Shown here: piece by piece, positions 143-8,959 of the stretch
Numbering within the stretch: the stretch's first letter is position 1
Layout: every line of letters begins with the position of its first letter
Assembly (NCBI GenBank): GCA_016839245.1
Contig: JAEOUN010000020.1
Span: 1-8,959, forward strand
Source: Candidatus Thorarchaeota archaeon
Lineage (GTDB): Archaea; Asgardarchaeota; Thorarchaeia; Thorarchaeales; Thorarchaeaceae
Direction of reading: 5' to 3'
DNA: 8,959 bases
Position numbers and translations under genes: made by a program
Notes under the pieces: model-generated
Told to the model about the DNA's origin: nothing
The model's database searches: none
What the model saw: only the letters and a program-made list of their open reading frames with translations

Positions 143-1237
143 ATGCACGAGTCTAAGTCCAAGATGAACACCTCTCAACAACAAAAACAGAAAATTGAAT
201 TCAGACATTTTGAGAAGGTGATTAATCCTCGTTCCATCCATGGTATCTATCCATATAGAGGGAAGATGTCTGCACTGGACGCATCACATGTAATTTCTCA
301 GCTCCCTGTTGATCTTACTCTTTTAGATCCTTTTTGTGGAACAGGAACAATTGTGTACGAAGCTCAAATCCATGGAATGAATGCAATAGGTGTAGATAAC
401 AATCCCTTAGCTTGCACTATTGCATCCGGAAAGACACAACCAATTGATCAATTAACAACAATCTCTCAATTAAAAAAAGCAATACAAAATGCTCAATCCC
501 TTCAATATGTTCCTAATATGCCAACTACTCCTGCACGATATTTTCATGCAGATACTGCGAACCAAATAATGCGTATCCTATCAGTATCCGGGGATTTTTC
601 GTCATATCTACTCTCGTGTTTCTATGGAGCTATCTGTCTTGCTGCTCGAGCATGCAATCACTGGTTATGGACATCTACCTCGATTGGTAGGATCAACCCA
701 CCATTACGAAAGGTGGATTTCTATTCCATGCTTTTGAAAAAAGCTAAGAAACATATTTCGTACATTCGAGGTACACCACCTGCTCAAATCTTCAACTATG
801 ATGCACGAAATATTGGCGACATTCTCCCTCCTAAATCGATTGATGTAATATATACAAGTCCTCCTTATTTTGATGCCTTGGATTACACTGGTTATTATAC
901 AAAGTTAGTAATGGAAATATTAGAAATTGATCGAGCTCAAGTTAGAGAGGGACTCATCCAACGCTATTCAACTTACAAACAGGAGATGAAAAAGGCTCTC
1001 TATGCTCTTGATACTGTACTACATAGCAAATCGTTGGTCATATTCGTTGTGGGTGATCGAATGGTTCATAGAAAACTCATCCACGGCTCAGATTTTTTCA
1101 AGGCCATTGCTCCTTGGGATGACCCCTATGTTGTAGAACGAGAATATACAAAGACCGCAAGCGGACTATGGGATATGATAAACACGACCAATCGAAAGGA
1201 GCAGGTCATAGTCTGGGATTTGGGAGGAAGGAGGTAG
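143..1237 (+). CDS. DNA methyltransferase (N4-cytosine/N6-adenine type), motif I first
   Basis: Amino-methyltransferase of 364 residues, predicted to move a methyl group from S-adenosylmethionine to the exocyclic amine of cytosine or adenine in DNA. Residues 34-41 (GIYPYRGK) resemble the motif X/substrate-entry segment. DPFCGTGT at 62-69 is the SAM-binding motif I, followed by GVDNNPLA (83-90) and a Lys-Thr typical of this methylase group. The catalytic motif IV is TSPPYF at 238-243, followed by DYTG. Motif I comes before motif IV, with ~170 residues between, opposite to the next gene. SPPY rather than DPPY favours N4-cytosine, but this is not decisive. The start could be ATG 143 or ATG 164; neither has a clear ribosome binding site, and a leaderless transcript is possible. 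It overlaps the next methyltransferase by one base, implying co-translation. The motif I context also resembles tRNA Trm-G10 methylases, but the SPPY...DYTG segment fits DNA methylases better. Confidence 0.85.
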   Translation: MHESKSKMNTSQQQKQKIEFRHFEKVINPRSIHGIYPYRGKMSALDASHVISQLPVDLTLLDPFCGTGTIVYEAQIHGMNAIGVDNNPLACTIASGKTQPIDQLTTISQLKKAIQNAQSLQYVPNMPTTPARYFHADTANQIMRILSVSGDFSSYLLSCFYGAICLAARACNHWLWTSTSIGRINPPLRKVDFYSMLLKKAKKHISYIRGTPPAQIFNYDARNIGDILPPKSIDVIYTSPPYFDALDYTGYYTKLVMEILEIDRAQVREGLIQRYSTYKQEMKKALYALDTVLHSKSLVIFVVGDRMVHRKLIHGSDFFKAIAPWDDPYVVEREYTKTASGLWDMINTTNRKEQVIVWDLGGRR

Positions 1238-1239
1238 TG
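1222..1239 (+). promoter_or_regulatory. Shine-Dalgarno site and TAGTG stop/start overlap
   Basis: The last codons of the first methyltransferase contain a purine-rich run, GGGAGGAAGGAGG, at 1222-1234. GGGAGG (1222-1227) lies nine bases before GTG 1237, which shares its G with the TAG stop (1235-1237). This supports the GTG start of the second methyltransferase rather than the ATG at 1168, and suggests ribosomes re-initiate from one gene to the next. Confidence 0.65.
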
Positions 1240-2061
1240 ACAAAGCATCTCGTCGTCATTGGCGACAGTCGTTCCATGAATTTGATTCCTGATGAATCCG
1301 TTCATCTTGTTGTAACATCACCGCCATATTGGCAATTGAAAGACTATGGAAATGAGTATGCTATAGGGCAGTCATCTGGCAGCTACGAAGAATATCTTGA
1401 ATCCATATGTGCAGTATTCAGAGAATGTGTGAGGGCTTTGAAACCAGATGGAAAACTAATCGTGAATATTATGCCATTACTGCTTCCAGGGAAGCGCTCA
1501 AAATTTAATCGACGCGTCACTAAATCTGTTCTTACAGATCTTGAGATGTTTATGACTTCACTTGACAATATGTACTTCCACTCTCTCTACATCTGGGACA
1601 AGCGAAAGGCTGTAAGATTTAGTTCATGGGGATCCTACCCGTATCCTCCAAATCTATTATCGACGTATCCCTATGAATGGATTATTGTCTTCTCAAAGAG
1701 TGGAAAACGAGCTCCGGTAGAGCGGTCAATAAAGGAAGAATCCGCAATCACTCATGAAGAATTTACAAATTGGGTTCAGAATTCAATTTGGGATATTCAA
1801 CCTGTTTCTGCCAAACTAGCCCGCCATCCTGCACCTTTTCCTGAAGAGCTCCCTCGAAGATGTATTCGACTCTATTCCTTTGTGGGTGATACGGTCCTTG
1901 ATCCATTTGCTGGTAGTGGAACGACTCTACGAGTTGCTCGCGAGTTAGGAAGAAATTCAATTGGTTATGAGATCAATCCAGACTTTATTCCAATAATTAA
2001 AGAAAAGATTGGAATTGACGAGTACGACAAATACGACTTTTTCGAGCTTCGTTATACTTAA
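1237..2061 (+). CDS. DNA methyltransferase, beta-class, probably N4-cytosine
   Basis: From GTG 1237 this is a 274-residue SAM-dependent DNA methyltransferase. Catalytic motif IV is near the N-terminus (TSPPYW at 27-32) and SAM-binding motif I is near the C-terminus (DPFAGSGTT at ~222-230, after HPAPFPEELPRRCI). This is the permuted beta-class order; TSPPYW is typical of N4-cytosine enzymes. The segment between (~60-200) would hold the target-recognition region. The frame is open back to an ATG at 1168, but the extra residues lie inside the end of the upstream gene. I prefer GTG 1237 because it overlaps the upstream TAG as TAGTG and GGGAGG at 1222-1227 is well placed as a Shine-Dalgarno site. 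The two genes are almost certainly co-transcribed and translationally coupled. No nuclease gene follows; the next gene is a flavoprotein. Confidence 0.88.
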   Translation: MTKHLVVIGDSRSMNLIPDESVHLVVTSPPYWQLKDYGNEYAIGQSSGSYEEYLESICAVFRECVRALKPDGKLIVNIMPLLLPGKRSKFNRRVTKSVLTDLEMFMTSLDNMYFHSLYIWDKRKAVRFSSWGSYPYPPNLLSTYPYEWIIVFSKSGKRAPVERSIKEESAITHEEFTNWVQNSIWDIQPVSAKLARHPAPFPEELPRRCIRLYSFVGDTVLDPFAGSGTTLRVARELGRNSIGYEINPDFIPIIKEKIGIDEYDKYDFFELRYT

Positions 2062-4483: not shown

Positions 4484-5365
4484 TTGGAGCAGACCCTTCT
4501 ATATCAATATGCCAATGGTTTTCCATCACCTATCACGTGTCTCTCTATTGGTCCAAAAGGGCGACATCTAGCTTATGGAGCAACTGATTCGACGATAACT
4601 GTTATAGACGCGCGAACAGGCAAGAAAAAACAGACAATCACTGGACATGAAAGTAAAATTACAGGTGTATCGTTCAAAGATAATAGATACCACTTGCTCT
4701 CATGTAGTTGGGATCAGACCACCCGTCTATGGGATACAAAGGAGAACGATGAACCGATTATCTTGCGACACAACTCAGAGGTAAAAGCCTTGGCGACAGC
4801 TTTGGACCAAAGTAAGGGTGCCGCTGGTGCCTTAGATGGCGAAGTCAAGGTGTTCTCATTAAATACATTGAAAAACCTCAGAAACCTTCAGGCACATCAA
4901 TCAGAAATCACAGGTGTAGCATTCATAGATAATGGAACTAAACTTGTCACCAGCTCTTGGAATGGTGAATGTAAAATTTGGGATTTAAGCTCTTATGAGC
5001 TTGTTCAGGAATTGCCAATACAGAATGATCACATTCGTTCCATAGCTGCCACACCTGATGGTGTTCGTTTTGTTCTAGGACTACATAGCGGCACAATATT
5101 ATCATTCAATTTGGAGCAACCATCAGAGATAGGCAAGCTCAAAGGACACACTGATGTTGTTGAGGCTCTATCAATTGACTCAACAGGAGACCGACTTGTA
5201 TCAGGAAGTTGGGATAGGACACTTCGTCTATGGTCTCTCAACAGCATGAAGGAGATATCGTCTGGTTCTCTCCTGACTGGAATTACAGCTGTTGAATGGT
5301 CTCCAACGAATGAGGTAGTTTATTCAGGGGACTTCTCTGGTACACTTATCTCTTGGAGTATCTAG
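4484..5365 (+). CDS. WD40 repeat protein, single seven-bladed propeller
   Basis: A 293-residue protein made almost wholly of WD40 repeats; I count seven, beginning near residues 17, 59, 101, 142, 184, 226 and 267. The best preserved have GH or AH followed later by a Ser-Trp-Asp/Asn turn and a terminal WD or W: SCSWDQTTRLWD (73-84), SSWNGECKIWD (157-167) and SGSWDRTLRLW (240-250). Seven blades close one beta-propeller, so this is a stand-alone scaffold, probably cytoplasmic; no signal peptide, membrane helix or enzymatic domain is present. It starts at TTG, because TGA at 4475-4477 closes the frame upstream and the only internal Met is at residue 255. GGTGA at 4473-4477 lies six bases before TTG. 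WD40 proteins mediate protein contacts; the partner cannot be told. It is convergent with the next gene, 24 bp away. Confidence 0.88.
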   Translation: MEQTLLYQYANGFPSPITCLSIGPKGRHLAYGATDSTITVIDARTGKKKQTITGHESKITGVSFKDNRYHLLSCSWDQTTRLWDTKENDEPIILRHNSEVKALATALDQSKGAAGALDGEVKVFSLNTLKNLRNLQAHQSEITGVAFIDNGTKLVTSSWNGECKIWDLSSYELVQELPIQNDHIRSIAATPDGVRFVLGLHSGTILSFNLEQPSEIGKLKGHTDVVEALSIDSTGDRLVSGSWDRTLRLWSLNSMKEISSGSLLTGITAVEWSPTNEVVYSGDFSGTLISWSI

Positions 5366-5389: not shown

Positions 5390-5968
5390 CTAGATTTTAG
5401 CCCGAATATCAATTCTAAGAAATCCTTCTTTGTTCCAGATCAGACGTATTCGATCATATCTCTGGTTTAAAGGCATTTTTCCATCTGCATCGACTTTTAG
5501 TGGTTCTCCCCTTAAAATCTTAGATATCTCATTTGCCAACTTGTTTCTACTGAATTTATCAAAAGGTATTGGTAGATGTGTTTTGTCCCAAAGCGTAATA
5601 GTAACTGCACGATCAGATAGTCTTGCAAGGGGTTGTGAATAAATGGCACAACCTCTCTTGAAAAATGGTGTCTTTTCCCTCATACTTCGTATTGTAATCG
5701 ATAATTTTCTATGTCGTGCAATCTCAGAACAGGCAGTCTTAACAATATCTGCAAGATATTCGGGTCTCTTATCGAATTGGTCAAAAAACTGCTCACTTAT
5801 AGCTTCAACAATCTTTGATGGTTTTGAAAGATGATTCTTCAATGATGTCTTTATGACCCAGTTTGTTGCATTGGCATAGCGATTTAATTCTTCTTCGAAA
5901 AGTATCTGTTTTTCCTTTGTTAGTACAACACTCTGTAATTTGAGGATTGTAGACTCCATATCTGACAT
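5390..5968 (-). CDS. TnpB-like N-terminal domain protein without RuvC nuclease
   Basis: A 192-residue protein whose whole length resembles the part of TnpB (IS200/IS605 OrfB) before the RuvC nuclease. Residues 6-38 match the TnpB start (LTKEKQILFEEELNRYANATNW, compared with PTKEQ...RF..A.N). YLADIVKTACSEIARHR at 71-87 resembles the helical REC segment. PFFKRGCAIY at 101-110 and TITLWDKTHLPIPF at 123-136 resemble the strands after it. YDRIRLIWNKEGFLRIDIR at 171-189 resembles the last strand pair (DGKFYLHVTVE-like) that in TnpB leads directly into the catalytic GIDLG. Here the gene stops. The 24 bp beyond, and the other frames reaching into the WD40 gene, show no RuvC remnant. It may be a degraded transposon gene or a retained nucleic-acid-binding protein. 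The frame is intact. ATG 5968 is the first start; Met4 is an alternative. The family call is by eye. Confidence 0.65.
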   Translation of the reverse strand: MSDMESTILKLQSVVLTKEKQILFEEELNRYANATNWVIKTSLKNHLSKPSKIVEAISEQFFDQFDKRPEYLADIVKTACSEIARHRKLSITIRSMREKTPFFKRGCAIYSQPLARLSDRAVTITLWDKTHLPIPFDKFSRNKLANEISKILRGEPLKVDADGKMPLNQRYDRIRLIWNKEGFLRIDIRAKI

Positions 5969-6004
5969 AAAACCACATCAATTGAATCAGTACAGTTGGT
6001 CTAA

Positions 6005-6014
6005 TCAATATAGC
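6005..6014 (-). promoter_or_regulatory. Possible TATA-like box for the TnpB-like gene
   Basis: On the minus strand, the 60-bp gap between the nucleotidyltransferase stop and ATG 5968 contains GAGCTATATTGATT. A start site ~25 bp downstream would fall near 5983, giving a very short leader. This would let the TnpB-like gene be transcribed independently of the upstream nucleotidyltransferase gene. Only the TATATT core supports it. Confidence 0.3.
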
Positions 6015-7112: not shown

Positions 7113-7123
7113 CAATAAAAGTA
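7113..7123 (-). promoter_or_regulatory. Possible TATA-like box for the nucleotidyltransferase gene
   Basis: On the minus strand the sequence reads TACTTTTATTG about 60 bp before ATG 7057. A start site ~25 bp on would leave a leader of ~35 nt including GGGAG at 7073-7069. It is the most TATA-like element in the right place, but the match is modest. Confidence 0.35.
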
Positions 7124-7182: not shown

Positions 7183-7893
7183 ATGATGTCCAGAGCTGAC
7201 GGACGAGCAAATGATGAACTAAGACCAGTTGATTTTGTTAGGAATTATCTGAAACATCCTGAGGGATCCGTCCTGGTTTCTACGGGCGAAACCAAAGTCA
7301 TCTGTACAGCTACAGTTGAGGAAGGTGTACCTGGTTGGTTAAATGGTAGTGGTCAAGGGTGGGTTACTGCTGAATATGGTATGCTTCCAAGATCCACCAC
7401 CGACAGAATAAACCGCTATAAAGTAAGTGGACGAACTCAAGAAATCCAACGATTGATTGGAAGGTCTCTCAGAGCTGCGCTCGACCTAAAACAAATGGGT
7501 GAAAACACAATTAAGATCGACTGTGATGTGATTCAAGCTGATGGGGGGACTCGCACGGCATCAATCACTGGTGCTTTTATCGCTCTCTGTGATGCACTTG
7601 ATTTCATGATTGATATGAGTATGATTGAGAAAAAGCCCATCTTTGGGAATGTGGCTGCAGTCAGTGTTGGTTTAGTAAATGATGAAATCTTGCTTGATCT
7701 TTGTTATGCTGAAGACTCGATTGCAGATGTAGACATGAATATTGTAATGCGCAATGAGGACTTTGTTGAAGTTCAGGGCACAGCAGAAGGTGCAACATTC
7801 AAACGTGAAACTCTTAATGCTATGCTGGACCTTGCTTCTAGGGGCATAGCCGACCTAATGAAAAGACAAGAGGACACTCTTCATGACAAATAA
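7183..7893 (+). CDS. rph: Ribonuclease PH, bacterial type
   Basis: A 236-residue (235 from the second ATG) phosphorolytic 3'-to-5' exoribonuclease. In bacteria it trims tRNA 3' ends using phosphate and forms a hexameric ring. The whole length fits bacterial RNase [14 protein letters not shown] (4-15), [17 protein letters not shown] (25-41), [14 protein letters not shown] (59-72), the phosphate/RNA-binding segment [17 protein letters not shown] (82-98), [17 protein letters not shown] (115-131), DVDMN (182-186) and [10 protein letters not shown] (197-206). The Asp and Arg residues expected at the catalytic and phosphate sites are present. It resembles bacterial RNase PH more than archaeal exosome subunits Rrp41/Rrp42. 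GAGGA at 7175-7179 is three bases from ATG 7183 but six from ATG 7186, so 7186 may be the true start. Its 23S rRNA neighbour is transcribed the same way, with a separate promoter between. Confidence 0.92.
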
Positions 7894-7980: not shown

Positions 7981-8440
7981 AGATTGCTTTCGCCGAGTAG
8001 GAAAGTATTGTCCGACGGCTATGCAGGGTCGTCGAAGACTGTTCATGTAATCTGGTAACAGAATTACCCTCGACGGATAGCAAGCTTTAAAAAACCAGCC
8101 AGATTGGCTGGCTGAGCAGTCGCTGATATTTCAGTTGAATGCGAAGTTAGGTCCGGAGTTCAGAGAAATTTCTCCCTGAATGAAGGCTCATCGGGACCAG
8201 GCTAAGAGATTGGTGCCATTCCCGATGTAGGACCGTCAATGTATATGTTCCAGTGCCGTGCACTTGTAGGAACAGATACACTGATTGCAGAGGATGGAAG
8301 TACACTGATCGAAAACTTAGGAATAGGAAAAACCAATTATTAGAATTACGAAACTCCTTGGCATGATTGGTTATGAATCAATCATGTTCACAATTTGTGG
8401 ACAACAGGTAATACTGTGTCAACACATGACTAGGTCCGCA
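7981..8440 (+). ncRNA. Structured gene-free leader upstream of 23S rRNA
   Basis: This ~460-nt stretch has no coding frame, tRNA, 5S or 16S gene. It is dense in hairpins, all seen directly: 7981-7997 with 8069-8086 (long imperfect stem), enclosing 8013-8017/8030-8034 and 8054-8058/8064-8068; 8095-8101/8105-8111 (CCAGCCA/TGGCTGG); 8159-8163/8176-8180; 8189-8196/8220-8227 (CATCGGGA/TCCCGATG); 8235-8251/8269-8285 with a 5-bp inner stem; 8362-8369/8379-8386; and 8386-8392/8396-8402. It lacks the conserved boxes of archaeal RNase P RNA (AGAACCCGGCUUA) and SRP RNA (GUCAGGYCCGGAAGG). The likeliest reading is the 5' external transcribed spacer of the 23S precursor, which is normally folded and cut at a bulge-helix-bulge whose other half would lie beyond the window. 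An independent non-coding RNA inside it is possible. Confidence 0.5.
8235..8285 (+). other. Long RNA hairpin in the 23S leader
   Basis: Arms 8235-8251 and 8269-8285 pair at 15 of 17 positions (one a G-U wobble). They continue as a perfect 5-bp stem AGTGC/GCACT (8252-8256/8260-8264) with a CGT loop and a four-base bulge TGTA on the 3' side. The mismatches interrupt long regular helices. This is the strongest single fold in the leader and could be a protein-binding or cleavage element. Confidence 0.6.
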
Positions 8441-8959
8441 ATTTCGCTATACGGTCAGTGGTGGATGACTAGGTTGGCTAGCCGAAGAAGGGCGTGACAA
8501 GCAGCGATATGCCACGGGTAGACGCATGAAGTCGTTGATCCGTGGATTCCCGAATGGGACTTCCTCGCATGGGCTAATACCCTGTGTGGATCCGAGGTCA
8601 TTCTCGGATTGGGAACGCTCGGAACTGAAGCATCTTAGTACGGGCAGGAAAAGAAAACAACTGTGATTCCCTTAGTAACAGCGAGCGAAAGGGGAATAGG
8701 CCAAACTGAATCCTTGTGCGATGAGTACAAGGAGATGTGGTGTTAGGGCCTGGACAAGTGCCTCTGCAAGTAAAGCCGAAGTCGTCTGGAACGATGTGGC
8801 ATAGAGGGTGACACCCCCGTAGGCGTAAAGTGCAGGCATGTCTAAGGATCCAGAGTAGCGCGGGTTGGTTTTCTCGCGTGAATGTCGCAGGTACAATCTG
8901 CGAAGCCTAAATACTCAGCCAAACCGATAGTAAACTATGTAGCGCGAGCGAAAGTTGAA
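8441..8959 (+). rRNA. 23S ribosomal RNA, 5' part (runs off window)
   Basis: The first ~520 nt of a large-subunit rRNA, archaeal type, truncated by the window end. Conserved segments in order: GGTGGAT (8460-8466); GCAGCGATATGCC at ~8500; GAACTGAAGCATCTTAGTA (8622-8640); CCTTAGTAACAGCGAGCGAA (about 8670-8690); GCCAAACTGAA (about 8699-8709); AGGGTGACACCCCCGTA (about 8805-8821); CCAGAGTAGCGCGGGTTGG (about 8850-8868); and CCGATAGTAAAC toward the end. The first ~160 nt correspond to eukaryotic 5.8S rRNA, fused as usual in archaea. The 5' end is estimated from its distance to GGTGGAT in other archaeal 23S genes and may be off by several bases. No 16S or tRNA precedes it within 1 kb; rph does. A 74-residue minus-strand open frame inside it is chance. 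Confidence 0.95.

Follow-up and report, generated by a model that had tools for sequence, protein, structure and literature searches.

Gene content and order at the locus

The window, by which we mean the whole stretch of 8,959 nt analysed here, carries a short gene on the minus strand between a nucleotidyltransferase gene and a convergent WD40 gene. Its product corresponds to the REC lobe of TnpB/Cas12f and is referred to below as the lobe. The features of the region are the following.

4484..5365, plus strand: WD40 gene, convergent, its stop 24 nt from the lobe stop
5390..5968, minus strand: stand-alone TnpB/Cas12f REC lobe (WED + REC), 192 aa, without RuvC
6001..6013, minus strand: conserved element CTATATTGATTAG (consensus TTAGATTGATTAG) with TTGAT in its core, 32 nt before the lobe start codon
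6029..7057, minus strand: nucleotidyltransferase gene, 342 aa, upstream of the lobe in 43/43 loci
7113..7121, minus strand: TATA-like box CTTTTATTG upstream of the nucleotidyltransferase (coordinates counted by hand); the related 9-mer TAGTTTTAT occurs in 25/41 loci
7183..7893, plus strand: RNase PH-type gene (Rrp41-like), the divergent neighbour in most loci extending there
8437-8959, plus strand: first part of an archaeal LSU rRNA gene (Rfam), cut off by the end of the window

The lobe gene runs from ATG to TAG in an undamaged frame. The 43 loci analysed comprise the window, L001-L021 and another 21 loci taken from genomes; L022 is not among them, as its contig breaks off within the lobe gene. 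All 43 frames are intact and end at a stop codon by 178-236 aa, which bears out the intact gene reported by a first-pass annotation of this DNA. The usual length is about 180-200 aa, and longer lobes of 226-236 aa are encoded at L019, L020, L021, L089, L090 and L091; the extra length in L019-L021 is an insertion inside the helical REC part. Among the 26 positions tabulated across the 43 loci, L16, K20, Y31, A79, F103, R173 and R175 are invariant, and P101, S111, P135, D137, K138 and R141 each differ in a single locus.

The order of the neighbouring genes is fixed. At every one of the 43 loci the lobe gene has the nucleotidyltransferase gene upstream of it in the same orientation, with a gap of 40-272 nt (median 58), and the convergent WD40 gene adjoins the lobe in 42/43 (no match in L076). 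Beyond WD40, the genes for an M28 peptidase and then an FAD-oxidoreductase follow in most loci extending that far, and the opposite flank contains the RNase PH gene and LSU rRNA. The 24-nt gap between the lobe and WD40 stops provides space for neither a transposon end nor a 3' guide-RNA region, in agreement with the earlier remark that no transposon-end remnant is visible here. The Rfam search of the window returned LSU rRNA only and no guide-RNA match, and no CRISPR-like array was found in the window, whose eight direct-repeat families have two copies each and are not array-like. The window also contains two different DNA methylase genes (143-1237 and 1168-2061, plus strand) that overlap by 70 nt and both match N6_N4_Mtase; the pair is kept together at many loci of the class.

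The lobe gene was found in 42/47 genomes of the class of G017 (Thorarchaeota) with one match each, and a profile search of the other 180 Asgard genomes found no stand-alone copy. The five genomes of the class that do not show it (G213, G215, G221, G225 and G226) also gave no match for the nucleotidyltransferase, and their RNase PH neighbour was found only as paralogues of 32-35% identity. The best FAD-oxidoreductase matches in G213, G221, G225 and G226 were distant (29-35%); G215 retains this gene at 66% identity, about 1.1 kb from the contig start on the side facing the lobe. We infer that the rRNA-adjacent region is missing from these five assemblies. One further carrier, L015 (QMXQ01000156.1), is titled Bathyarchaeota, and among the 256 genomes searched in its class no other has the lobe gene; as its gene order is that of the Thorarchaeota loci, it is probably a misbinned contig.

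Selection on the gene was estimated with a Nei-Gojobori script in the 15 most similar of 210 lobe pairs. The dN/dS ranged from 0.055 to 0.276 in 13 of these pairs, the other two having saturated dS, and was 0.218-0.276 where dS did not exceed 0.30 (three pairs). The nucleotidyltransferase gave 0.041-0.141 in 14 pairs (15 closest of 171), and the higher values of the lobe indicate that it evolves faster than its neighbour. Purifying selection acts on the lobe gene, and the set contains no random-length remnants interrupted by stops.

Relationship of the lobe to TnpB

The predicted fold of the 192-aa protein matches TnpB/Cas12f from the N-terminus through the end of WED, where RuvC would begin. 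The RuvC region is absent and the C-terminal end of the protein coincides with the WED/RuvC junction. The structure prediction and the profile comparison given below together uphold the reading of the first-pass annotation that this is a TnpB-like N-terminal half without RuvC, and the fold was not an unrelated one. The Pfam search that had been suggested with it did not help, as no family passed the cut-off in any of 30 members. More broadly, neither the protein nor the family had any match above cut-off in Pfam, NCBIfam or the PDB sequences, and the TNB zinc domain is absent from the lobe protein. The NCBIfam hints were weak, namely Cas12f2 in 1/30 members (E 0.015), amid other chance-level families, and TIGR01765, a transposase N-terminal domain, in 2/30 (E 0.027).

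A search of 5.8 billion proteins gave 29 relatives besides the query, of 190-212 aa and 51-78% identity, and a 36-member alignment as query gave 147 proteins at E<=10. Among the best 120 of these 147 and the 29 relatives, the named matches are hypothetical proteins and the organism, where given, is Thorarchaeota, with one labelled Odinarchaeota. A divergent lobe member used as query in the protein search matched its own record alone. A contig scan with the single lobe protein found no relative and with the alignment found 22 loci; no viral contig matched when searched with the lobe family, and the lobe was unmatched by PADLOC.

The link to full-length TnpB came from profiles. The family profile matched 43/227 Asgard genomes, of which 42 have the stand-alone gene and one (G101) has a TnpB. 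The G101 match is a 435-aa open frame aligned over profile positions 14-135 (E 2.7e-7), and a 411-aa ORF of G101 adjoins a 208-aa ORF that by eye is an IS607-type serine recombinase. When the 256 genomes of the class of G015 were searched, three matched, namely the L015 contig, a 386-aa TnpB of G395 in its N-terminal half (E 6.0e-8) and an 82-aa TnpB remnant, a TnpB start, in G394 (E 3.2e-4). Furthermore, when the family profile was compared by hhalign with a profile of 13 archaeal TnpBs, the probability was 90.1 (E 1.6e-6, 154 columns), and the two run collinearly from close to the N-terminus to a point shortly ahead of RuvC; the nucleotidyltransferase profile against the same 13 TnpBs served as control and gave a probability of 0.1. 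Solved Cas12f is in turn matched by these archaeal TnpBs, with E values as low as 2.4e-35. When the longest ORF was taken from each of 60 loci, eight passed the inclusion threshold of the family profile; 30 of the 60 loci had been retrieved because they resemble the G101 TnpB, and the longest ORF is not always a TnpB. Chained alignments did not place the TAM-contact residues of ISDra2 on the lobe, the TnpB profile aligning to ISDra2 only from about its residue 90 onward. As two full-length archaeal TnpBs were matched independently in their N-terminal halves, the lobe gene likely originated by loss of RuvC from a TnpB, going by these alignments. That it derives from TnpB and has been domesticated is in our judgement close to certain.

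The lobe shares the order and boundary of WED and REC with the TnpBs of IS200/IS605 and IS607 elements (ISDra2 and the archaeal L083/L092 and L141). It differs from them in having neither RuvC with its catalytic D-E-D nor the TNB zinc domain, in its size (192 vs about 390-410 aa) and in lying outside any transposon, within a host gene order that is fixed in 43 loci. Compared with Cas12f, the lobe protein likewise lacks the nuclease lobe. To our knowledge, the domesticated TnpB relatives Cas12, Fanzor and TldR all retain the RuvC fold. TldR, which excerpts of PMC13418256 describe as having an inactivated RuvC domain and using a guide RNA, resembles the lobe in being a domesticated TnpB derivative without cleavage that is tied to a non-transposon gene; the lobe departs from that description in that RuvC is absent altogether rather than inactivated, and probably in having no guide RNA, none having been seen and no room for one existing downstream. 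A survey of Fanzor proteins, as excerpted, set aside 166 candidates not aligning to RuvC as potential partial proteins or false positives (PMC10432273). No description of a stand-alone REC-lobe protein was found in the open-licence literature, which was covered mainly by titles and abstract openings. That a gene encoding the REC lobe alone belongs to the core of an entire class shows the lobe to be under selection in its own right.

The TTGAT-containing element upstream of the lobe gene

The region between the nucleotidyltransferase stop and the lobe start contains a 13-nt element with at least 10/13 consensus positions in 39/43 loci and 9/13 in the remaining four; in 200 shuffles 1.1 loci on average, and never more than 5, reached the same level of at least 10/13. 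An unbiased count of 9-mers in the 100 nt before the lobe, with one mismatch allowed, gave ATTGATTAG and TTGATTAGG as the commonest, in 39/43 regions each; the commonest 9-mer of shuffled controls reached 6-9 regions (20 sets). The best 9-mers before the neighbouring genes were found in 26/37 loci for RNase PH, 25/41 for the nucleotidyltransferase, 18/27 for M28, 18/40 for WD40, 10/26 for the FAD-oxidoreductase and 8/14 and 5/9 for the methylases. The element of the lobe is better conserved than any of these comparable boxes, and when it was masked the best 9-mer of the remaining intergenic sequence occurred in only 7/43.

The lobe gene has this conserved upstream element to itself and in promoter position. 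The end-point of TTGATTAGG lies 30-35 nt ahead of the lobe start in 34/39 loci carrying TTGATTAGG. At L089 the element is 33 nt from the lobe start and 226 nt from the upstream stop, which indicates that its position is tied to the lobe start rather than to the upstream stop. Exact TTGAT is present in 38/43 intergenic regions (shuffled mean 4.7, maximum 12); the other five loci have TTCAT (L078 and L082), CTCAT (L017) or CTGAT (L073 and L076). The G within the element is conserved in 40/43 loci, which is unusual for a TATA box. The RRP41 (RNase PH) promoter has AATTAATAG at a distance similar to that of the lobe element, as a box conserved in 26/37 loci, and both divergent promoters, upstream of 7057 (minus) and of 7183 (plus), carry conserved TATA-like boxes.

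Elsewhere in the loci the element was matched six times with up to two mismatches in 764 kb of strand sequence. Across 18 genomes, with up to one mismatch, there were 91 matches to the element and 71 to the reversed pattern, and 13 of the 91 are the lobe's own site as judged by position; single genomes differ in this respect, with 12 vs 3 in G009 and 10 vs 4 in G012. We examined 30 of these matching places, of which 7 are the lobe's own site, 18 lie inside ORFs of at least 100 aa and 5 fall in neither group. Visual inspection of the 30 showed no other gene that repeatedly follows the element, and no regulon was seen. Co-variation of the lobe with the variant elements of L017, L078 and L082 was unconvincing, consisting of F102 replaced by Y (also in one other locus) and the variable position 23.

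Possible functions of the stand-alone lobe

According to excerpts of PMC10097598, ISDra2 TnpB grips the TTGAT duplex with WED and REC and holds its RNA scaffold with WED together with RuvC. TTGAT as the TAM of this TnpB also appears in the part of PMC8612924 available to us, where TAM motifs are said to vary among TnpBs and IS608 to use TTAC. With WED and REC alone, the lobe would keep the TAM cleft and lose much of the RNA surface; these two features, with a TTGAT-containing element ahead of the gene, favour guide-free DNA binding at its own promoter. We suggest that a TnpB lost its nuclease lobe entirely before the radiation of the Thorarchaeota class, and that the remaining WED + REC lobe was domesticated and inherited vertically at one chromosomal site behind the nucleotidyltransferase gene. 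It may still do what it does in TnpB and clasp a short motif of duplex DNA in the WED/REC cleft, now with no guide RNA. As a small and basic protein it would then bind DNA sequence-specifically, chiefly at its own promoter, and so regulate itself, and it may be functionally linked to the nucleotidyltransferase. The kind of gene-specific conserved site in the own promoter that marks a putative autoregulator was found in 39/43 regions.

Taken as a whole, the domesticated, guide-free REC lobe acting on its own promoter is our best explanation, with a probability of roughly 0.45. The binding step itself, guide-free at its own promoter, we propose tentatively on the grounds of fold and motif; it is further favoured by the high pI of the lobe, by its invariant K20, R173 and R175, and by the persistence of lobe and element where the active site of the nucleotidyltransferase is altered (L013, L015, L074 and L075). 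More tentative still is the stricter version, in which the TAM-reading lobe has become a free-standing, guide-free transcription factor at TTGAT in the promoter of a class core gene. The element occupies a TATA-like position and may be the core promoter alone, and its agreement over five letters with the motif of a single distant TnpB may have arisen by chance. The five loci that deviate from TTGAT, the variety of TAM motifs among TnpBs and the missing regulon also count against binding. If the lobe does bind the element ahead of its gene, TAM/PAM reading would be isolated from guide RNA and cleavage, in a TnpB/Cas12 descendant whose sole function is TAM reading, and a 192-aa protein could be used to test how TAM recognition arose and what it minimally requires.

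The main rival takes the lobe as the RNA-binding subunit of the nucleotidyltransferase, which would present structured RNA for tailing or modification, the element being a plain promoter; we consider this rather unlikely. The partner is predicted with a pLDDT of 92.7, and its nearest folds are the aminoglycoside/kanamycin nucleotidyltransferases (ANT/KNTase), LinB, HalB and MNT, with which it shares the nucleotidyltransferase core and C-terminal helices; it differs from them in its 342 aa and in the active-site residues changed in several members. In the window it carries the GS motif, DxD and a third carboxylate. Adjacency on the same strand in 43/43 loci fits a joint function, as does the distribution, in that strong nucleotidyltransferase matches occur in 41 Asgard genomes that equal the 42 lobe carriers minus G022, whose contig ends within the lobe gene. 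The opposite charges are also in keeping with it, the pI being 9.5-10.3 for the lobe (21/21 sequences) and 4.6-6.2 for the nucleotidyltransferase (19/19), as are the contact of WED with the RNA scaffold in the TnpB of PMC10097598, as excerpted, and the RNase PH gene and LSU rRNA that adjoin the cluster.

Against it, RuvC supplies much of the surface with which TnpB holds its RNA, as the excerpts of PMC10097598 describe, and RuvC is absent here; the strictness of the upstream element is also left unexplained. The active site of the partner is a further objection. S33, D44 and D46 are each kept in 37/41 and D70 in 39/41 of the nucleotidyltransferases having those positions, which we take to be the catalytic residues. 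S33 and D44 are altered in L013, L015, L074 and L075, where the lobe and its upstream element are both present, and D46 is replaced by N in L016, L018, L072 and L081, with the gene order unchanged in all of these. An altered active site in eight loci with a conserved lobe argues against a lobe that purely delivers substrate. Moreover, the distant nucleotidyltransferases of other Asgard genomes had no adjacent lobe in the seven loci examined. At L122, L123 and L124 (G080, G081 and G085) such distant nucleotidyltransferases of 315-318 aa lie directly upstream of a 963-aa ORF, without the lobe. In PADLOC, the partner nucleotidyltransferase matched candidate-system models (PDC-S09, E 9.1e-8).

Less probable is a structural or protein-binding lobe that reads no nucleic-acid motif, with the element as an ordinary if strict core promoter. 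The position of the element, that of a TATA box mostly 30-35 nt ahead of the start, and the conserved boxes of RRP41 and the nucleotidyltransferase speak for it. The conserved basic residues and high pI of the lobe are hard to place in such a role, the element is stricter than the boxes of the neighbours and has a G atypical of TATA, and within the loci it is almost exclusive to the lobe start, given the six other matches in 764 kb.

We give very little weight to a split TnpB in which the lobe borrows a RuvC half or guide RNA from resident transposons. Of the 22 host genomes, 19 do have TNB-domain matches. The exceptions are G005, G008 and G017, the last with its locus on a record of 3.16 Mb that is titled chromosome; OrfB_IS605 matches were 0/5 (G005, G007, G008, G017 and G021). 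These counts come from metagenome assemblies that may be incomplete, and as a diverged RuvC half could escape such searches, they do not amount to an absolute absence of TnpB. The 3' end of the lobe gene also has no conserved space for a guide RNA. The function of the lobe thus seems not to need a resident TnpB nuclease lobe. Still fainter is the chance that the stand-alone REC lobe is ancestral and predates TnpB; TnpB could conceivably have been built from a free REC lobe, but the stand-alone lobe is confined to one class, being in 0/180 other Asgard genomes and 1/256 in the G015 class (L015), and TnpBs are far more widespread.

The first-pass annotation had left two options, a domesticated RNA- or DNA-binding protein or a truncated relic. 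The former agrees with the TnpB homology and conservation, the binding partner being our proposal; the latter, for which the missing nuclease lobe and true remnants such as that in G394 could be cited, is refuted by 43/43 intact frames at the same site throughout, fixed synteny, presence in 42/47 genomes of the class and purifying selection with dN/dS well below 1.
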